Assembly (NCBI GenBank): GCA_028753945.1
Contig: JAPNXP010000018.1
Span: 62,001 to 126,000 of the forward strand
Reading direction: 5' to 3'
From: Hexactinellida sp. DTS-2022
Lineage: Eukaryota > Porifera > Hexactinellida
Length of the DNA: 64,000 nt
The translations under genes and the position numbers were made by a program. Of this stretch, positions 47,040-59,846 are shown in pieces. Under the pieces are notes generated by a model that saw only the letters and a program-made list of their open reading frames with translations, had not been told where the DNA came from and did not search any database. Every line of letters starts with the position of its first letter. Position 1 is the stretch's first letter.

Positions 47040-47331
47040 TGTAAGTAGTGTGTGTATGCAGTTATACTGTTCCAGTGGGTGTTCCTTCAAACACATCATA
47101 TTTATTTCTATAGATTTGGTGTTGTATTATATGTGACTATCTGTTGCTCGTGCTTAGAAAGGAATGTCCAGTACTTACTAGGAGAGCAAAAATCGTATCA
47201 AATCAAACGTCAAATATTATACATTTATAACTGATGGGTAATTTCTAATTTGCCTTTCCTTAACTCTTTCCAAATACTCCTCTATTTGTGATGCAATATT
47301 GGAATATATATTGCATTACATTTACATGTTA
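47040..47331. promoter_or_regulatory. Conserved 5' flank of MGCRHSK copy 2, cut by transposon A
   Basis: This flank is similar to the flank of copy 3 (60,624-60,875). Shared blocks include CTCGTGCTTAGAAAGGAATGTCC, ATCAAATCAA.CGTCAATATT and TGATGCAATATTGGAA. The shared block probably contains the common promoter. Element A begins at 47,332, just after this region; 47,323-47,331 is its left target duplication. Confidence 0.55.
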
Positions 47332-47736
47332 ATGACTGTGAAGTTGGCTTAGTATTCGACCAGGCTCACTTCAGTCAAATCTTTGACTCACTTCTAGTTA
47401 TTAGATTTGAATAAATTTAGTCTCGTTCGAAAGAGGAGATACGGAGGTTTCCCGTGATATTATTTATTTTTTAATTTTTTAACTTTCAGTTGGTTATTTT
47501 TATCATACAAAGCCGCACTGGTATCTCATCAAAAATCACATTCTCAAAATTTGTTTACAATTCTGAAAATTTGTTACCATACTTTGGAGAGTTGGAGGTT
47601 TATGTGATTTAATTTTCATTTAAAATTTCCCAAAAATTGTGGAGTTATGAACATTCAAACTTGAAGTTGGGAAAAAGAGTGGAAGTAGAATTTTGGAAAG
47701 TCCATTGAGTAGGGTTAGTACAAAGTGTCAATTCCT
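47332..47736 (+). repeat. Left inverted repeat of A, outer part
   Basis: Reverse-complement match of 59,244-59,648. Both copies have 397 bp from the terminus to the CAATTCCT target that element B duplicated. Example differences are CAAATCTTTGAC versus CAAATATTTGAC. Confidence 0.92.
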
Positions 47737-47749
47737 CATATATTAAAAA

Positions 47750-47800
47750 TGTCAATCCGCATGCGGAATAAGTAAATCCGCATGCGGAATTTAGTATAAA
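47750..47800. repeat. CCGCATGCGG palindrome array, left end of B
   Basis: Two CCGCATGCGG palindromes in AATAAGTAAATCCGCATGCGG context. They mirror a longer array of four at about 52,797-52,890, read there as TTCACTTATTCCGCATGCGG units. Arrays like these near termini often bind the transposase; that role is inferred. Confidence 0.8.
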
Positions 47801-47964
47801 TTTGCATCACAGGCGGACAAGTCATTACATGTGCAAAAGTCATTGCATGCGGAAGAGAATTCGTCGGCCGTAGGTGACACCCAACTCTGACTCATATTTG
47901 AACATAAATATATGTACTATGCTACTCATAATTCAGAACTTATTATTTTTCTCTAATTTATAAC

Positions 47965-49848
47965 ATGCTCCGTATAAATAAATCTAATGGTCGTGAAATT
48001 TTGATCAAGACGTGCGATAATTTTCATAAGCGAACAGGAGAAGTCGTGGGGATAGTGACAACATGGAAAGGAACCCTTACTGTTCTAGGACCCAAACAGT
48101 TTCGAAATCTGATTTCTGCTCAGAAAGATGAAATTTGGTGTAGCCTTTCTCCAAGAACAGTAGGTTGCACTAATGAAACATCATATACAATGCAGCAAAC
48201 ACAAGATTTATTGGGAAAAGATGTTAGTACTTACACAACTCAGATGTTACGAAGAATAGTGTCTTCAATTGTCAAAGAAGCAGTTGGTATGTTAGCTCGT
48301 TTGATATATGATTTCCAATTAGAGTATTTATTTTTAGTATACTTAATAGGCCGTCATAAGAGGTTTTGGGAAGTTGAAGAACTAAAACCAGTTTGGTGGC
48401 CAAAATATATCCCATTTGTATGCGTTTCGAAATCCACTAAATATAGAATAACTAAAAAGCAGCTTATTGAAATCGTGGTATCATATAAACGAACAAATAA
48501 TATGATTAAGACGAATGAAGCCGAATCCTCAACAGATACACATTTTTCTACGAGCACCCCGATCAAAAGGCAATCATTGCTAGAAAGCTCTAACTACTTG
48601 TCACCTCCTAAAAGATCCTTAGAAATTAGCATAGATGACGATTCGTATTTCAATGGACTGCTAGACCAGTCATCTCATAGTCATTCAATTCAGCAAATTC
48701 TACCGCCACTGAACTATATACTACCTTCTTTAAACAAAGTATCACCTAGTATGAAGAAAGTATGTTTAACAGAACTTTCAACCCAATGCCAATTGACAGA
48801 TACTTCTATTTATGTGTTTTGTGTACTTAAGGATAACAAATTCATTAATTTCTAAATTTGTTATTAACAGCTAATTTTCTTTAGAATATCTTGAAGAATT
48901 GTTTTCCATTACTTAATGGGTTACAAGACACTCTCTTTTCCCAGGTAAATATTCAGTTTCTAAGTATCCTTCAAACTTTCAGTAACTTGTTTCTTAGAAT
49001 AGATACTTATTACATAACAGTTGACCTTCCCTAATCGGAACCTCGCTATTTTGTTCTCCTCGATAATCGGAAAAGTAGTCGGTTGTCCATCTGCACCCTA
49101 GTAAATATATACTTTCGACTATACGTGTATTAAAATTAGAGAGTTCGATATATTATCATTATATGAGTTGGTCTAATAGCAAGGAGCTTCGAGTGTAACT
49201 TGACTTGTTAGTAGGTGAACCCTATCGTATTTTATTCTTCTATTTTAGAACCTTAGTTTTAAGAAGATACCACGTGACGAGTTGAGTGTACAAATTCATC
49301 ATAGCAAGAAAAATCATTGGATGTGTTCCAGTTCCGATAGCGTTAACGGAGTACGTTTGTATGACTCGATGTTTCAAGGAATTACAGCAACTGATATCGA
49401 TACCCAGCTTGCACTATTGTATGCCGACAAATCTATGCAGCTTGAAGTTCAAGTTCCAAAGATACAACAACAACTAGGTTGGACAGATTGCAGTCTCTTT
49501 GCTGCTGCAGTTGTTACTGCATTAGCAACTGGAAGTGATCCTGTGTACCTCACATGGACTCAGGCTAATATGAGAGAACATATGCGCAAATGCATCGAAA
49601 GAGAAGTAATCACTCCCTTTCCTAGTATTACTAGAGGAAAACGCACGGTAAAGGTCCCCATTCCTCAAAGGTATACAATTGAGTGTATTTGTGACTGCAA
49701 TCTGCCTGAATTTGCTTACGCAGAAGATGGAAATGAGTACAGTATTCAGTGCGACACCTGCAACTTTTGGTTTCACAACCATTGCTATAATCTCCCGAAC
49801 ACTTCAATTTCGGATTGTTTTCAGTGCAATAATTGTAGAAGAATATAG
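47965..49848 (+). CDS. Element B protein: C48/Ulp1-like protease fold with PHD finger
   Basis: Four exons chain in phase: 47965-48286, 48350-48813, 48885-48944, 49249-49848, giving 481 residues. The first intron is 63 bp and keeps the frame if retained. The C-terminal half has an Ulp1-type triad: His305 (IHHSKKNHW), Asp321 (VRLYDS), Cys363 (QQLGWTDCSLFAA). It is preceded by LTDTSIYNILKNCFP and LNGLQDTLFSQ. A PHD-type zinc finger closes the protein (CICDCNLPE, QCDTCNFWFHNHC, CFQCNNC). The N-terminal half is not recognised apart from RFWEVEELKPVWWPKYIPF. SUMO/ubiquitin-like proteases are known companions of several DNA transposons; the role here is unknown. No stop or frameshift is needed in this model. 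Confidence 0.72.
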
Positions 49849-49902
49849 TAATACTTCATTTTTGTAGACAGCTAGACATACATGTATGTAGACATAATTT
49901 AC

Positions 49903-52721
49903 TCAATTATTAATACCTTTGTTCCAACATGCTAAGAAATAACGGGAGTTTAAAAACACATTTTCAATCCTCATATATGCCACTTGAGTCGCAATACGTC
50001 TAAGTAATGAGAAAATTTGCTCACATGTTTGTGAATTAATTACTCTCATATCATCAGTGTTCCAGGTGTTCATAGAATATATTGGATTGCATTGGTGATT
50101 CTTAGAATGAAATTTGTCTATTAAGAAAGTTGTGTTGCGGAAAAGAAATGGGTCCCTAAATTAGAGAATAGAGTTAATTTCTAGCTAATTAAATCACTCA
50201 AATATCTAACAATAATAATAATTAGAAAATACTGGATGAAGAACATACCTCATTATACATGTTGAATGCAAATTGCAAGCGTTGTCATATATAATTACTT
50301 CCGGCATCGTTTTTAACTTTTTTAACAACATATTGAAAATGAGGACGGTTGATTCCCTTAATTTCATAACTTCAAAGCCATAACATTTTCTATGCTGACA
50401 AGCCATCATAAGCAATCCAGGGGAAAATCTCTGATGCTTAGGATAAAGTTTCTTGCAATTTTTCTGATTTTCAACGTGTTGATCTTGGAGATACTGAGGA
50501 ATTCTAGAATGAAGCAATCAATATACACTGTTAAATCGGAGGATATTACATAATTAAGTAATATAATTAAAATAGATTGATAAAACTTACTTGAAATTGT
50601 TGTTTAATGCTGGATAACAGTTGAAGTGGTCTTTAACATCACACACATTCACTTCACACACTTTTCGGGTTGGTTTTCGAATTAAGACTTGTATTTGTTT
50701 AAGAATACTCATTAAAACTTCAGCAACATTTTCGTTTAATGTGATTTTATCATTCGGAATATCAATGTCTGGAGGTAACGAATTTATAAGCAGTTCAAGA
50801 AATTTTCTTTTGGGATACATAGATTGTAAGTCAGATAACTTCCCAGTCTTATGTTGCGATAATTCGGCTAGTAGTTTGCGCTGTACCACTGAAATTGCAG
50901 AAATCCGAACAATAGCAAAGATTGATTCACATCGAGAGAACACTTGGATTACTTCTTGGACAAGTGGTAAAATTCGGTGAACTTTTTTTATAACACCATG
51001 TTGTTCAGAACAATATACAATATATTTCGCAAATTCAGGTTTCACGGATTCTAGAGCATTTGTAAAATCTAAACTACTTAACCCTGACTCAATAAATCTT
51101 AGTAATAATTTTCGAGTTTTCACATCAGCAACATATACTCGCTCTGCTATCGGAATAAGCGGATATTGTTGAGATTCATCAATATTATCGTCTTTTGGAG
51201 GCAAGAGATTTGTTGTCCCCATCGCTATGCCATCCAGAATGATTATTGAAGGAGATTCCTTGCATTTAATGCAACAAAAATTGTTTGCATAATCAATATC
51301 TACTAATCGTAGATAAGATTTCCAGGCGTGCTGCATGATGTGATATTTGTATTGGTGTGGATTACCCGTTCTAGTTAGTTTGTCATTCTTTGCCCTACAA
51401 TAGAGATATTCGTATAAAATATGGAATATCCTGGGCCGTGTGATTATAGAATTGAACTTACTTCAGATAACTAAATAGGGGGTTCCTGGAATGAGTCATT
51501 AATTCACTATATTCATACAGCAAAGCATAATGGATGAAATATTTGTTATTTAAGTTCAGAAGTAAGAACTCTTTTCTTTGATATCCACATTTTCATTTAC
51601 ACGGTCCAATACAATATGAACTGTACACTAAACAAAGGAATATACAAAAAAATCAGAGAAAATTGTTGTTGTTACAATAATGAGATAAGTACCTTTGCAT
51701 TGAGCCAGCTCGCGCACATCATTTTCTAAATAAAGGACGATTCCAATATTTTCTAACTTAAGATTTAATATTGAATACTGATATCCATTCTCACATATAG
51801 TAACTTCTGGAATCAGGTTATGAGGTAAATTCATTCCATTTACCGCTTGCTCAGTATATATTTGTGATTGGATTGAATCAAATGAAAAAGGAATTGGGCT
51901 TGAAGATATCGTGGATTCAAAAGTGTTTTTAGGTACTGAAATACATTCCAAATCCTCTTGATGTAATGTTAGTATCTTTTCTAGTGTTTTTTTCAGATTG
52001 CATAGCTTAGTGCAAGTGTCACAAAACCATTTCCTGCTAGAAATTTCATTATATGGAAACTGTATTTGTTCTGCAATACAATAGTACTTGTGTTCAGTAT
52101 ATAATACTTTGTTTCTGTAATTGTAGAAGATACCACAGCGCAAAACACGTTACAATGATTCCGAAAACATAACTCATAGGCTTGAAAGTGGGTACATGTT
52201 ACTGAAGAACATTCCAAGCAAATTAATTTGTTACTATTGATGATTACCATGGAATTCTTCAGAGTAACTCTACCTAAAAACAAACATAATTTATATGATG
52301 AATTTAATAAGGACAGTTTGAAGCAAATAAGTTATTTTGTCAACTAACCTTCATTAATTTTATAGTCGGGCATTATGTAGATATTCGCTTCTTCTAAATA
52401 CCATAACTGTGATTTTTTAAATAATTGATGGCAATATTGGTGAACAAAAGACATGCCAAGTTCGACCACTGCTTCTTCGTTGTAATTTAAATTAGAATCT
52501 GGAAATAAAATAGTTCCGCAAGGGCCCATAGTTTGATGAACTGAAGGAAATCCATGTTCGAACACTGCTTCTTCATTGTATTCTAAGTTATAACCTGGTA
52601 TTAGAGTAATTTCTAGTGTGTCTGTTGATTCGCATATTGATGTCACTTCACAATACAATTCATTCCATCTCCGTTTCTTGGAAGGAATTAACTGTAGCTC
52701 TCTGTTACTGTTTTCCGCCAT
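49903..52721 (-). pseudogene. Element B transposase, HMGXB3/CxC type, broken
   Basis: Six exons on the minus strand: 52721-52349, 52273-51693, 51627-51462, 51394-50591, 50503-50249, 50155-49903; phases agree except inside exon 2. Cys-rich N-terminal region (LICLECSSVTCTHFQ; WFCDTCTKLC). A presumed first acidic residue lies in SPSIIILDGIAMG, the second in PEVIIYDNACNLHSTC after FSPGLLMMACQHRKCYGFEV. The Glu lies in INSQTCEQIFSLLRRI, after LIDKFHSKNHQCNPIYS. These are marks of the family to which HMGXB3 belongs. Two lesions: a frame change in exon 2 near a T-run at about 52,147, and an in-frame TGA at 51,595-51,593 in exon 3. Assembly errors could mimic both. It ends 54 bp from the stop of the convergent protease gene. 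Confidence 0.7.
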
Positions 52722-52789
52722 AATATTTCTAAAAATGTCAATAACAGGTATAAATTATTGTACTCCGCCAATGATGCATACATATATGA

Positions 52790-52892
52790 ATTATTCCGCA
52801 TGCGGATTTACTTATACCGCATGCGGATTCACTTATTCCGCATGCGGATTCACTTATTCCGCATGCGGATTCACTTATTCCGCATGCGGATT
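52790..52892. repeat. CCGCATGCGG palindrome array, right end of B
   Basis: Four to five copies of a 21-bp unit (CCGCATGCGGATTCACTTATT), inverted relative to 47,750-47,800. Confidence 0.85.
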
Positions 52893-52917
52893 GACATTTT
52901 TAATAGCTCCAATTCCT

Positions 52918-53223
52918 ATCCAATATCAACCTGAATCTATTTTATTTTGGTATCATTCGTTAGAAGAGACACGGAGGTTTACCTCAATGCCATTAGATTC
53001 CCGAATATTCCCTATATAACAGATAAATAAGTCCTTTAAAAATGGCTTAAATCTCTGTTTTTATTGTTTTATCTTTTCAAACTTTGAGCTCAATTTTCCG
53101 AGATAAAATTGAACCAGAATCGATTCAAACTTTACAGGTACTTTCTCTGATATATTATTATTCTATCCCCAGAAAAAAAAACAGGGGTCGCTAGTCATTT
53201 CTTTCAGAATTTTTTTAATTTCT
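52918..53223 (+). repeat. Left inverted repeat of A, inner part
   Basis: Reverse-complement match of 58,938-59,243, starting right after the second CAATTCCT. Differences are rare (GAGACACGGAGG here against GAGACAAGGAGG in the other copy). It ends at TTTAATTTCT, after which the two sides diverge. Confidence 0.9.
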
Positions 53224-54562
53224 CCAAAATGTTTTAATTTCGATCTCATTATTTTAGCTAAGCCTATCTTTATTTCATCATAACATCAATATTAGTGATA
53301 TCATATATACTATCTACGTAATGTAACACAATTCATTCGCTTATCTTAGTTCCCATTGTAGTATTGAGTTTCAACTAATAATAGCAAATTGTAATTGCAA
53401 CTATATAACTAAGACATCAGATTGGAATGCAAACAGAATAAGTAAACAATGAATTATTCTGGTTGAAATAATGGTAGTGATAATTATATAATTATTAACA
53501 AATGCAAGAAGAATGGCATCCACAATGTGTGCTTGTATCAATTCCCACTGCTTTTTGGATTGATCTTACTTATCCAATTCCAAGAAGAGAGAATGGCATC
53601 CAGGTATCTCATTAAAATAATATGTGTTTACCGTCCGAATAACGGACATGTTGGGGAAATGGCCTTTGTTCTTTGGACTCTGGAGATGTCCACTTCTCGG
53701 AGACGGCTGAAGTATTAATTACATGCATGGTAAATTCATTCCGTTCCAGGAGGTTTGTCCGTTTTAAATGTGTTGTCCGCTTCTCGGAGTGTCCGTTTTG
53801 GGAGACTACTGTAGCTGTTATCAATTCCGACTGCTTTGGGATAGATCAATTCCTTTTTGTATTTGCCTTCCTTTAAAGAACTATAGGATAAATCTTTACA
53901 CAAATATTTATAAATCATCCACATGTACATTTAAGAATAGAACTTACCACTTTATAACTGTTGTCATGAGAAGCTTTGGGACCTTTCTGTATCAAGCTGC
54001 CACCATTGACAGCTCAAGTGGTCCAAGTGGTGTCGCCACCACTCTAGGGTTTCGGCCCTCCATAGGCCTCATCAGGAGGACGGTCCAGTCCTCTACCCAC
54101 GGTACGCTCACTAAGACCGCTGTATCCGACCTCGTCCAGATGGTCTTCTTCCATCGTCGCGACACAACTAGGCCTGCTCTCTCTCGCTGTCTACACAGCT
54201 CCAGCAGCGCCTAGTCCTCCTGGGAGTGACTGATCATAAGCTCTCGCGGACCACACACCGCTATGTCACACTGTCCAACATAAATGTTGTTGAAAATCTT
54301 CACTATTTAAGTAGAGAAGGTGGCTGTAGAAATGTTTGTTTATTGCCTGTAGAAATGAGAATCGCAATTTTTTGCGCTATAAGAGCCCGAAATAATTTTA
54401 TTCTTCTTTGCTTCTATCGATGTAATTAATTGGATCGCTTCTAAACCTGGATAACATTCCGCATAAGACAATTAATCATTAACTAATAAAGGGAATCCTT
54501 TGGTTTTCTAATTATATAGTTTTAATTAATTAATATCTACGACTACGAGGTAATCAGTGAAT
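53224..54562. other. Element A non-coding region downstream of the transposase
   Basis: Mostly AT-rich. About 53,630-53,818 resembles a degenerate MITE (ACCGTCCGAATAACGGAC...GTCCGTTTTGGGAGACTACTGTA). About 53,990-54,260 is a conspicuous GC-rich island with a GTGGTGTCGCCACCAC hairpin, open for about 80 codons on the plus strand (TLTKTAVSDLVQMVFF). I do not recognise it. Confidence 0.5.
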
Positions 54563-57500
54563 TCATTGATTGCCCGTAGATATTAAATCCACCCGTAATA
54601 TTGGTTCATAATGTACTCCATTATGATTAATATAGATAGAGCCTGCATTATTTCCTGGAGGAGACTCCAAAGTATCAATTAGTTTAGCACCTCTGCCTGA
54701 AAATACCATCCACTTGTTACCCATGTCTGAACTAAATACCCAAATATCCGTATGCAATAATAAGGCTGTTGCAAATAACTCCACATCAGTACCCCACGTA
54801 GAATTCCTCTTCATATTAGATTTTACTACATAGTCTGCCACATTACGATAGTTGATTACACTCCTTGGAAATCTATTGGCAATAAACTTATTGCATGCAT
54901 CCTTCAGCTTACCAACCATATTCGCTACAACTTTCAACCGTACTAAATTAAAACCATCAATATTTCCTGTCAACCAGTACGACAATGATGCAAATAAACA
55001 ATTTCCATCTCCAGGAATTCGCAAACACTTTGAAGGTACATATTCTTTTAAATTAGAATTAGCTGGGATATTATCTCTTATGGAATTTGTAGAATCCGAC
55101 AACTGTAAATGTAAACCTTCACATAACTTCTTCTGTCCCCGATATGTAAGTGGTTGGAATGCCGGTAACTTATATTCCATGGTAGCCATTTCTACTAAAT
55201 CTAAATCACCAATTATTTCAACCACACTTGCACGCACTATATCATTAATAACTGTAGCAACATCGACTGGATTCTCTTCACAAATAGTAGCTTCCTCTCT
55301 GTCTATTGAACGTTTACTTATACTTTCTACATTAAAACTTTTATTTTTACTACTTAAACTTTTAGACTTGAAATTTGTAAATACCTTACTAACTTTATCA
55401 ACAGTTGGTTTAGTATAACTAAATTTACTCTTCTTACTTCTAGACCACTCCTCTTTGCACTCCTCCTCATTCTCTACGCGTAATCTCTTCTTAACTTTAA
55501 ACACTTTATGAGCCAGTGGAGTGAAAGCAAATTTAAACGCCGCGATCCTATCGTCTATATTATTATAAACTGTTCTGATGAAATCAGCAGCTCGTATCCC
55601 GGTCTCTGAATTAAATATGCTGTGTTTAACAATTCTGAACCAATTCTCAACAATCGCATTACTGTCTGTTGCATTCTCTGACGAATGAACTGTACATAAA
55701 ATTATCCCACTCCACAACGGTAACAATGGCATATAATACGTTAGAAGAAATTCAACTATCTGGGGGTTATAAGAAACACTAGGATCAAGTTGCGAATTAT
55801 TTTCGAATTCGCTTATTGAGACTAAGGTATTACGATAAATCATTTCAAAATGTCTGCCAAAAGGGGATTTATCTCTGTAAGTTACAGCATTACTTTTAAC
55901 TTCAGTCTCATCCTCGAATTCATTGGGAACATCATTACTAACATTAATCTCCGCCTTAATACATTCTTCTAGTTGGTTTAATTTAGTGCAATAAACACTA
56001 GTTTGCTTCTTACTACACAAAATATAACAAATTAACCCGAAAAGTTGATTAATTTCATCCATTTGTTTACTATTAACCATACGACCAAATACATGCAATA
56101 TTAATCTTTTTAAAGCCTTTTCTAATTTGAATTTCTTATTTAAATTATAACTAATTCTGTGCATGATATGAGCCGAGCAGAGATGGAGGACTGTTATAAC
56201 ACCTAAGTTCTCACTATTAGCTATAAATTCCCAACAATATTGGAGATAATGAAAAATAGTAAATTTGTTAAACGCTAAACATGTACTGTGCATCATAGCC
56301 CAACTAAAATCTATCTCAACTTTCTTAATTTTTAACTCCATTGTGTTAAATAATTTTACACTCAAACACCATTTATTTAGGAAGTGTGAGATTTCAGCTG
56401 TGCTATGATCGCTACTTATCATTTCAGCTAATGGGATGGGACTAGTGGAAAACTCCGGGTGTTGTATTGTAAGGGCATAGTAATATATTTTCTTAGAACA
56501 GGAAGGGGGTTTAGAAATAAGAGAACCAGTCGCATCTAAATTCAAGACAATATCTTTACTATTCATTAGTTTTAGAATTTCCAGCTGCTTATAAGAATAC
56601 ATATGAATAATGAAAGGATCCTGTACGAAATACTGAACATAGCCTGGTAGGGGGGATTCAGGGAGTAAATAACGGAAATACTGCTGGGTTGCTGTTATAT
56701 CTTCCATATATAAATTAGAAAATCTCTCCGTAGATTTCAATTCAGCTCTAACTTTCCGCAAACAATCTTGTGATTTAAGAGAAGTAAAATTACCATAACA
56801 GAGACCATGATTACTTGAATTATTAAATTGTTTATTATAAATTTTACTAACCGAATTATTCACTAATAATTCTCCCATTTTACTACGCTCACTGCAAGAT
56901 AGATGGCGACTATGTGCGCTCTGTCCATCTGTGTGTTGAAGTGACAAACATCCTTCTGAGTAAATTTTGACAAGTATGTCATTATCTACCAAATTTAGTG
57001 CATCATCAATATAGAAGATATAAGATCGACAATTTTCAAACTTACAAGACGCTCTAGCTCTGAAGAGTGGACTATTAACCTTGCGACTATCAGGTTTCTT
57101 CAACCAATAATTTACAAACTTCAAAACACACATTGGGGCTAAATCTTTAAAATTTTCAGCAAAAACATTAGTCCAATTACTAACCAATGAAGTTTTACCA
57201 GTAGAATTGGTAATACAAATATTATCCCACTCACTCATGTCGAGATAAAACTCACCACAGTCACTACTACTCGTACTACTTATAACTTCAATCTCAGAAC
57301 TTTCTATCACCATTTGTGTTTCAAAGTTGTCAGTTTTAATATCAGGCACATCGTGAGAACGAGGAAGTGGTTCACTAAATTCACTTTCAACTTTAACACT
57401 AAAATCAGTACACTTACTTTCTAAGCACTTGACACCATTAGCATTGTACTCATCTCTCAACACCTTTACCCAAGTTATAAAAAGACTCAAGTCATCTCCA

Positions 57501-58622
57501 CTTAAAAACACATATTTCTTACCAAACATTTGATACAAGAAACTACATTCAAGCTGTACTTCAGACAACCACAAAAACAATAAAGGAGTACATTCCACAA
57601 AGCTTTTACAATAAGTATTTACAATCGTGGTAATAAAATCAAAACACTCCTCAAAATAGCACATTTCCTCGAATTGTAAAAAACCAGAAACATTTTGTGG
57701 ATTAATTAATCCATAAAACATAGCACCGTCTACCCATAACTGGCATTCAGTTGTATTGAACATGTAATACACGTCGTGACCTTCACTATTCAGAGAACTA
57801 AGATTTGTATTCTGAGAATCTATCTTTAACTGATCATACATAGCTTGGTCGGACGCAGAAGATGCCCACACAATAAGTAGTTTATCGTCAACTACATTCA
57901 ATTCAAGTTTTCTTAAATCTAAGTTATCGAATGACGAAAATAAATCGAAACAAGCAGCTACACTTAAACTTACTTCCTTAAGAATTGTGGAAGTTACCAA
58001 TGATACTCTGCTCTGAATAGTTAAGTTACTAAGACTATAACTCACGTGAAATTGCTCCTCCGAACTAGGGGGACTTACTGAAGGCTTAACTTCGCTCAAA
58101 GCATCCCTCACCAGGGTTCTTACGTCATAAGAATTATTTCTCCACTTCAAGTACAGGCTATGTCTCTTATCAGGCTTGTTACGCAAGTAGACTTTTTTAC
58201 AAATGGAACCCCAAATGGAACTGGGCGAACTGTAGCTTGCAGACAGGGACTGGACCAATTGTTCGAATGATATTGTTGTGGAGAGGAGTGCGTCGATAAA
58301 AGATTTGATCTCAGCTGGTAGTTCTAAAAAAAATAACAATAAAGGTTATTCTTATCCATAACATATATAAGTCAAAATTACCTCGTTCGTGATGAGTATC
58401 TTGAGTTGGGGTGATAGGCCCAGGGTTGATCTCGATGCCGCCAATGACGAGTAGAATGGCTACTATACATGCAATAAAAGCCGAGATGATCGAAACAGAT
58501 GAATCAGTTTGGTCTGTTGATTGATGACGATGATGGGTATTATTGCATCTGCGGCTGCAATGCAATCCGATGTGAGCACGCCACAATTCAATAGAAATCA
58601 TTGAGAGAGAATAATGAATCAA
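54563..58622 (-). CDS. Element A transposase with 2A-like leader and C-terminal OTU domain
   Basis: Two exons on the minus strand: 58622-58382 and 58323-54563, giving 1,333 residues. Leader 1-68 has a hydrophobic stretch (IISAFIACIVAILLVI) followed by GGIEINPGP; NPGP is at 66-69, a 2A-like ribosome-skipping motif with Gly in place of the usual Asp. Central DDE-like core: Asp677 (IVLNLDATGSLIS), Asp752 (KKVEIDFSWAMMHS), a C-x2-H (LHLCSAHIMHR), Glu973 (SNAIVENWFRIVKH). The C-terminal OTU cysteine protease domain has Cys1189 (RIPGDGNCLFASLSYWLTG), WGTDVELFATALLLHTDIWV, and His1318 (YINHNGVHYEPIL). The frame is intact. The family is known only by pattern; DDE assignments are inference, while the OTU signature is strong. 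Confidence 0.85.
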
Positions 58623-58937
58623 TAAATAATTGTAGAAAAGAACTAAAGTTCAAGAAATAATTGTAGAAGAATCAAGGAAAAGTTTGAAAGAGTGATGAAA
58701 AAAGCAATGAATGTAAAGTTCGAAATCTCCTACTAGCCTGAGTCGAGGCTTAAATATTCTAAGAATAGCCTAAATGAGCAACAGCTAAATTTGTAAGTGG
58801 AACTAACGATTGTGTGACGCAAATTAGACTTGTGGGAAATACCATTTAGGGATAGCTATAGGTGCATACTTGTAGAGAGCTTATTATAAACTAAAGTATG
58901 AATATTGAAAATTTAATTAATTAGCTATTGCTGTCCA
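58623..58937. promoter_or_regulatory. Probable promoter region of the element A gene
   Basis: The 315 bp between the transposase start and the right inverted repeat. AT-rich with no ORF; it should contain the promoter. No TATA motif is obvious at a fixed distance. Confidence 0.4.
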
Positions 58938-59648
58938 AGAAATTAAAAAAATTCTGAAAGAAATGACTAGCGACCCCTGTTTTTTTTTCTGGGGATAGAA
59001 TAATAATATATCAGAGAAAGTACCTGTAAAGTTTGAATCGATTCTGGTTCAATTTTATCTCGGAAAATTGAGCTCAAAGTTTGAAAAGATAAAACAATAA
59101 AAACAGAGATTTAAGCCATTTTTAAAGGACTTATTTATCTGTTATATAGGGAATATTCGGGAATCTAATGGCATTGAGGTAAACCTCCTTGTCTCTTCTA
59201 ACGAATGATACCAAAATAAAATAGATTCAGGTTGATATTGGATAGGAATTGACACTTTGTACTAACCCTACTCAATGGACTTTCCAAAATTCTACTTCCA
59301 CTCTTTTTCCCAACTTCAAGTTTGAATGTTCATAACTCCACAATTTTTGGGAAATTTTAAATGAAAATTAAATCACATAAACCTCCAACTCTCCAAAGTA
59401 TGGTAACAAATTTTCAGAATTGTAAACAAATTTTGAGAATGTGATTTTTGATGAGATACCAGTGCGGCTTTGTATGATAAAAATAACCAACTGAAAGTTA
59501 AAAAATTAAAAAATAAATAATATCACGGGAAACCTCCGTATCTCCTCTTTCGAACGAGACTAAATTTATTCAAATCTAATAACTAGAAGTGAGTCAAATA
59601 TTTGACTGAAGTGAGCCTGGTCGAATACTAAGCCAACTTCACAGTCAT
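58938..59648 (-). repeat. Right inverted repeat of A (711 bp, uninterrupted)
   Basis: Runs from AGAAATTAAAAAAATTCTG to the terminus CAGTCAT, with target duplication TACATGTTA at 59,649-59,657. It reads GATAGGAATTGACACT across the site where B sits in the left repeat, so it serves as the empty-site reference. Confidence 0.92.
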
Positions 59649-59846
59649 TACATGTTAGGGGTACATATAGGGTCTAGGGTAACATATCATCAGTCCTGAA
59701 GTGGGACTAAATAACCACATAATGTGAATACTCAAAACAGTATAGTATACAAACTAACAAATAGAATAAAATATGGCAAAACCTAAATAGTCACTAACTA
59801 GAGCCTACTCATAATTCGTAACATAATTATTCTGAGAATATTCGAG

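Follow-up and report, generated by a model that had tools for sequence, protein, structure and literature searches.

What kind of mobile element occupies positions 47332-59648 of the window, the whole 64,000-nt stretch of hexactinellid sponge DNA analysed here, and how does its transposase come to carry an OTU domain and a 2A-like leader? A sequence-only reading had described the locus as an intact DNA transposon of 7.1 kb, here called element A, that encodes a transposase-OTU fusion. We consider it probable that element A is an autonomous, recently active DDE-type transposon of a large family, in which the 2A-like leader and the OTU domain are shared accessory parts. Its features, in window coordinates, are these:

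47323-47331, no strand: left 9-bp target duplication TACATGTTA, an exact match to 59649-59657
47332-59648, gene on minus strand: element A, with inverted repeats and a flanking duplication
47332-47736, plus strand: left terminal inverted repeat, outer 405 bp (self-alignment)
47737-52909, no strand: insert B, a different mobile element that entered the left repeat of A later, with its own 8-bp duplication CAATTCCT
52918-53223, plus strand: left terminal inverted repeat, inner 306 bp (self-alignment)
58601-58382, minus strand: exon 1, encoding MISIELWRAHI..., a hydrophobic stretch and the 2A-like GGIEINPGP; start read from the sequence at 58601
58381-58324, minus strand: 58-nt intron, GT..AG, read from the sequence
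58323-54563, minus strand: exon 2, encoding the N-terminal part, a CxxxxC..H motif, the DDE-type core and the OTU domain; read from the sequence
58938-59648, minus strand: right terminal inverted repeat, 711 bp (self-alignment)
59649-59657, no strand: right 9-bp target duplication TACATGTTA, an exact match to the left copy

Without insert B and one copy of the duplication that B made, element A measures 7136 bp, and the description of an intact 7.1-kb transposon with repeats, duplication and an unbroken gene holds with coordinates exact to the base. Alignment of the two left halves with the right repeat (inverted arms of 407 and 314 nt with an 8-nt overlap) gave 711 bp per end with two mismatches, at positions 50 and 460; the stated length and near-identity of the repeats stand, and the two repeats are not exactly identical. 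The 9-bp duplication is perfect on both sides, as had been stated. The right repeat holds three imperfect 16-nt copies of a AAACCTCC..CTC motif, which are possible candidate sites for the transposase. The TACATGTTA pattern alone was discarded as a means of finding copies; it occurs at 609 + 631 places in the genome and is uninformative.

The left repeat is interrupted by insert B, as the sequence-only reading had it, and the 8-bp duplication CAATTCCT lies at 47729-47736 and 52910-52917. Insert B is about 5.2 kb long and has a 21-bp tandem repeat (a minisatellite of 4.9 copies) near its right end, with related inverted copies near its left end; the left end of B has six further strong matches in the genome. 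Its frame resembles PHD finger models of Pfam with scores below their cut-offs (best E 1.9e-5), and by eye it perhaps also encodes an Ulp1-type protease. The combination of PHD finger and minisatellite recalls Rehavkus as tabulated in PMC6446971.

Element A has further copies in the 112-Mb genome. The right repeat found at least 41 matches (40 of 162 candidates scored); 22 of them form 11 pairs in opposite orientation, one is the right end in the window and 18 are unpaired, with outer flanks inspected for 7 of the 18. Duplications accompany most of the 11 pairs: 9 bp in seven, 8 bp in one (C4), 7 bp in one (C13) and none in two. In six pairs the 9-bp duplication is exact at the very ends of A (AGGTAAACA, ATAGAAATT, TCATTGTGT, GCATAAATC, AAGATTTAT and CTCCCAGGA); in the C11 pair it is AACCCAGTT if the ends are moved 2 bp outward, so that they read ACGA, and with the left end unmoved the match is 11 bp. 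The C5 pair has no duplication at its repeat ends. Four pairs (C18, C16, C1 and C9) span 7134-7136 bp and have repeats 99-100% like those of the window. A search for copies flanked by 9-bp duplications had been proposed from the sequence, and it yielded them, with repeat ends that coincide with the duplication in most pairs examined. Viral contigs and one scan of prokaryote genomes yielded no relative.

The C6 pair was rejected as an element: both of its ends stem from one end by inverted duplication (99.8% identity over 1518 bp). These ends, L031 and L030 (G000 C6:4275859-4310889), lie about 35 kb apart as inverted copies that include 830 bp of outer flank (99.6%), and the arrangement is either an artefact of the assembly or a large duplication in palindromic form. 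Two further right ends, L022 (C6:1045694) and L029 (C12:4100895), align over 885 bp at 97.7%; about 197 bp of this lies outside the repeat, and this common flank points to a duplicated segment.

The gene was read as a single uninterrupted two-exon gene, and this was upheld: with the start and splice sites read from the sequence, the predicted spliced product has 1326 aa and a final stop only. The protein query found at least 44 matches in the genome (37 of 1381 candidates scored). Four of these 44, in the window and on C1, C18 and C9, span residues 1-1258 stop-free; the C17 copy covers residues 1-1257 without a stop, and many of the remaining matches are broken or partial. Between the copy in the window and the one on C18 there are 13 substitutions in 1326 codons, of which 7 are synonymous and 6 nonsynonymous. 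The unbroken frames and the small number of differences between these two copies indicate that element A has moved recently, and together with the near-identical repeats they support the recent activity that had been suggested.

Does the core of this protein place element A among the Mutator-like elements, as its long repeats and 9-bp duplication had suggested? The core alignment comprises six members from this genome: the window protein and five others with 36-49% identity to it, of which two are nearly alike and two are partial. D670, D745, C789xxH792 and E966 in the 1326-aa numbering (D602, D677, C721xxH724 and E898 in the ORF numbering, an offset of 68) are invariant, as are C432xxxxC437 and H469 (ORF numbering) upstream of the core. 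The core residues would have the catalytic roles of a DDE-type transposase. By eye, we take the D..D..CxxH..E order to resemble that of MULE-type transposases and the upstream CxxxxC..H to resemble MULE zinc fingers.

Profile comparisons gave no such kinship. No Pfam transposase model, MULE (PF10551) included, matched any of the six members at E up to 10; besides OTU, seven families appeared, each in one member only, with a best E of 0.0062 (FadR_C). One of them, DUF4372 (E 0.13, one member), is found in some bacterial transposases; none of the seven was taken as evidence. The MULE model works in the same genome, where at least 150 places exceed its cut-off (150 scored of 961 candidates); the window gene is absent among the MULE matches listed, and the direct Pfam scan of the six members is the test. 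Comparison of the core by hhalign with MULE proteins of the same genome, 6 at first and 12 later, which the sequence-only reading had recommended in kind, gave a probability of 0.3% or less between profiles that are shallow on both sides. The best local match pairs the SNAIVENW E motif with the MULE E motif at a probability of only 0.2%. The 17 MULE-domain proteins that were read fall, by eye, into at least two very different groups. Single-sequence fold models of the protein reached pLDDT 33.6 and 37.8, too poor for a fold search, and a sequence search of the PDB with the core profile gave no match beyond chance. That search returned four OTU matches (E 5e-5 to 0.65); a match of profile positions 715-814 to the chain mt-LAF14 (E 0.37) was taken as chance.

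The lineage extends well beyond close copies of A. A second family (L043 and L044), with 37% identity to A, bears inverted repeats of about 338 bp, and the two copies read are flanked by duplications of 9 bp (GTAGAATGT) and 8 bp (ATTTTTAG); of its 51 protein matches, 8 are unbroken over the full length. NPGP is absent from the 8 kb examined in each of these two copies, which indicates that the lineage can do without the leader. Nor was NPGP present in shorter stretches of L045-L049, outside which exon 1 may lie. The ends of family 2 hold an extra near-copy of the adjoining terminal repeat (L043 544-1303 and 6490-6919; about 93% over 410 bp). The core motif H.C[S/T]AH.M occurs at 154 places in the genome and its reversed control at 0. 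Of 12 further core-motif loci, most of them broken or ending inside the examined stretch, two carry the OTU Cys motif and one the HYEP motif according to a motif search. In L064, the best preserved locus, the frame continues into DGNCLF ... NHFQP, an OTU domain with Cys and His, and at least three of the 12 (L064, L067 and L072) hold an OTU match among the matches listed. By comparison of listed coordinates by eye, at least 14 places other than A have, on the strand of the core motif and downstream from it, an OTU match above the Pfam cut-off; this count, drawn from about 100 of the 154 core-motif sites and 150 of 440 OTU candidates, includes several close copies and is not a rate.

Two readings of the core have to be weighed. 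MULEs, including Phantom, make duplications of 8-11 bp and have inverted repeats that are hundreds of bp long; they encode one transposase, in many groups with a zinc finger (PMC6446971, in part). Element A and its relatives agree in insertion habit: the repeats are long (711 bp, and about 338 bp in family 2) and the duplication is 9 bp in the window and in 7 of the 11 pairs, 8 bp in one pair, and 9 and 8 bp in family 2. That element A truly belongs to the Mutator superfamily and has diverged within it comes close to an even chance, given these features, the CxxxxC..H before the core, the order of the core residues and the pairing of the E motifs, faint as that pairing is; the MULE model that matches none of the six members and the hhalign probabilities weigh against it. 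The same negative profiles, together with the wide diversity within the genome (members down to 36% identity, 154 core-motif places), would suit a separate DDE superfamily with MULE-like habits, a possibility that we hold tentatively, since shallow profiles can miss real kinship and the profile tests covered Pfam and MULE proteins of this genome. The Mutator-like claim stands for the duplication and the repeats and finds no support in the sequence comparisons. Because the kinship tests were negative we have not filed element A as a MULE; it resembles MULEs in insertion habit, and its kinship with them is unproven.

The OTU domain is firmly identified. In the window protein it scores 34 bits (E 4.8e-8) with PF02338, whose cut-off is 23.3, and the Pfam scan found it in all six members. 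The fusion of transposase and OTU is supported, and so is the 2A-like leader (GGIEINPGP at residues 54-62). C1182 and H1311, which we presume to be the catalytic residues, are invariant in the six aligned members, and the domain is predicted to be active. Comparison of the window gene with the A-type copies L041, L040, L042 and L039 gave dN/dS values of 0.135, 0.079, 0.143 and 0.126 for the OTU part and 0.214, 0.229, 0.327 and 0.332 for the whole gene, some of the copies being broken, which raises the ratio. Among the regions that could be estimated, OTU had the lowest value in all four comparisons, with the linker before OTU close to it in L042 (0.147). A higher dS in OTU contributes to the low ratio (0.132 against 0.069 in L040), and in the youngest pair (L041) the dN of OTU, 0.0051, exceeds the gene mean of 0.0019. 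The contrast between OTU and the rest gave one-sided p values of 0.38, 0.022, 0.12 and 0.015, below 0.05 in two of four comparisons; these values are uncorrected and non-independent, and L042 covers only 75 OTU codons. Selection is likely to be acting on the OTU domain, to judge from these ratios. At least 150 places in the genome exceed the OTU cut-off (150 scored of 440 candidates), and many of these lie in open frames of 226-228 aa that are themselves repeated. Several repeated families of this genome seem to have OTU as a common accessory.

The leader of element A comprises residues 1-62: MISIELWRAHI..., a stretch that is hydrophobic by eye, and then GGIEINPGP, a match to the [D/G]xExNPGP form of 2A sequences. 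A codon pattern for GGIE-hydrophobic-NPGP matches 48 places in the genome and a MISIEL.RA pattern matches 63, with 0 for each reversed control. On the same strand, 38 of the 48 GGIE.NPGP sites are preceded by a MISIEL start at a distance of 100-700 nt, with the spelling of A in 19 cases and that of L051/L052 in the other 19. Ten sites are unpaired, L050 among them because its start differs from the pattern by one codon. The L051/L052 spelling occurs at 26 starts, of which two were read. A further 16 sites read GVELNPGP; among the matches listed, a MISIEL start lies upstream of 8 and none is listed near the other 8, and two of the 16 (L054 and L055) were read. Three MISIEL sites on C11 (9014867, 9023396 and 9032992) are about 9 kb apart, and a MISIEL start of the L055 spelling sits between the inverted ends L031 and L030. 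L039, an A-type copy, has lost its NPGP.

We examined six leader loci other than full copies of A (L050-L055). L050 and L053 are A-type relics. At L051 the leader is followed by a Helitron N-terminal domain (Pfam 8.4e-30) and, in L051/L085, by a PIF1 helicase (Pfam 4.1e-25) and an endonuclease; the L052 frame is by eye near-identical to the L051 Helitron gene. L055 has a third leader spelling before the same upstream Helitron-gene exons and is known from those exons rather than from the Rep/helicase part, and at L054, which shows the third spelling too, the 4.6 kb downstream contain no long frame. The leader of A is 37-41% identical in protein sequence to the three Helitron-locus leaders (pairwise E 1e-11, 9e-12 and 3e-15) and 42% identical to that of L054 (E 7e-19), E-values that are generous because a short query was compared with one sequence each. 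Conservation lies at the two ends, MISIEL[W/Y]RA[R/H]I and LL.IGG[I/V]E[I/L/M]NPGP, with unlike middles, and the DNA of the compared leaders is 43-57% alike. On this comparison of sequences, three Helitron-like loci start with a leader homologous to the MISIEL...NPGP of A, and we infer that the leader and the Rep/helicase frame are spliced into one protein there. The L051/L085 frame, the one Helitron read to its end, ends in an OTU-like domain according to a profile of the A-family OTU (probability 95%, E 2.8e-8); Pfam reports no OTU in it at E 0.01. Within A the leader is not strongly constrained (dN/dS 0.19, 0.44 and 0.55 in the three comparisons with changes).

Are these two parts working components or passengers? 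Transposons capture host genes, and the OTU and the leader might be chance captures without a function in transposition; the absence of the leader from family 2 and an OTU contrast that is significant in two of four comparisons only would fit this, which we nevertheless judge very unlikely, because OTU is present in six of six members scanned and downstream of the core motif in at least 14 further places, its dN/dS is low, and the ends of the leader are kept in Helitrons although the DNA has diverged so far. The leader might instead have belonged to a host gene, for example an immune receptor as in the sea urchin, and have been captured separately by Helitrons and by A. The GVELNPGP sites with no MISIEL start listed nearby leave room for such a source, and we think it unlikely: no host gene with the leader was found among the leader loci examined, and no long frame follows within 4.6 kb of L054.

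Our preferred reading of element A is that of a cut-and-paste transposon of Mutator habit, whose leader and OTU pair is also used by Helitrons and whose two accessory parts would have the following functions. A single DDE-type transposase would bind the long inverted repeats, perhaps at the AAACCTCC-type motifs, and insert A with a 9-bp stagger; the insertion products are seen directly in the 9-bp duplications, and repeat binding and DDE chemistry are presumed. When the ribosome skips at NPG/P the leader would release a free transposase able to reach the nucleus; without skipping, the transposase would stay on the membrane route and its dose would be limited. This role in release and tethering is drawn by analogy with the 2A signal leaders of sea urchins. 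Deubiquitinase activity is probable for the OTU domain, to judge from its conserved catalytic residues and low dN/dS, and the domain might protect the transposase or edit ubiquitin at the integration complex.

Because a Helitron of this genome also carries a leader homologous to that of A and a tail resembling OTU, the two look like shared accessory parts that are untied to one transposition chemistry. As a tentative proposal, then, two unrelated classes, Helitrons and a DDE transposon with long repeats from an unnamed superfamily, may use the same two-part control device, exchanged or kept between the classes independently of transposition chemistry: a MISIEL...NPGP leader that splits the product into free and membrane-tethered forms, and a C-terminal OTU deubiquitinase. 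If the leader works in this way, element A is a DNA transposon that controls its dose through translational recoding; such control is described for immune receptors of sea urchins and for non-LTR retrotransposons (PMC4981915, in part) and was not found for DNA transposons in searches of open-licence papers. If the pairing of leader and OTU tail in two unrelated classes is real, it would point to a common host barrier that both must pass, such as ubiquitin-based turnover.

The sequence-only reading knew of no family that combines these features. Among the titles, abstract openings and passages covered by searches of the open-licence literature, there was no 2A leader on a DNA transposase or Helitron and no OTU-bearing Mutator-like element; this absence is weak evidence because most subscription papers and Repbase reports lie outside that literature. 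OTU on transposons is in itself not new, being described for Ginger1 and Helentrons (PMC2836005 and PMC4067079, each in part), for both of which ubiquitin removal has been proposed as its role. The term OTU occurs 0 times in the main text of the MULE paper (PMC6446971), and Ulp1 has been reported in Mutators (PMC2836005).

Compared with MULEs, element A is alike in duplication size, long repeats and a single transposase, and unlike in having a core without detectable sequence kinship. Ginger1 has a transposase with a C-terminal OTU, a Gypsy-type integrase core and repeats of 44-270 bp (PMC2836005); element A has in common with it the C-terminal OTU (the Ginger1 definition asks for a C-terminal OTU or Ulp1), but its six members are without an integrase match in Pfam. 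In Helentrons OTU is associated with a Rep/helicase/endonuclease protein (PMC4067079). Element A likewise has OTU but none of these three by Pfam, whereas L051/L085 has Rep and helicase, and the Helitron-like loci of this genome also carry the MISIEL 2A leader. The 2A signal leaders of sea-urchin NLR proteins consist of an N-terminal signal-like segment ending in ...ExNPGP that splits products between cytoplasm and secretion; 2A sequences are reported in non-LTR retrotransposons as well as in these leaders (PMC4981915), and activity is reported for -GxExNPGP- motifs (PMC6249498, in part). The segment at the start of element A is of the same type, but in sea urchins it is carried by immune receptors and here by a transposase and by Helitron-like genes.
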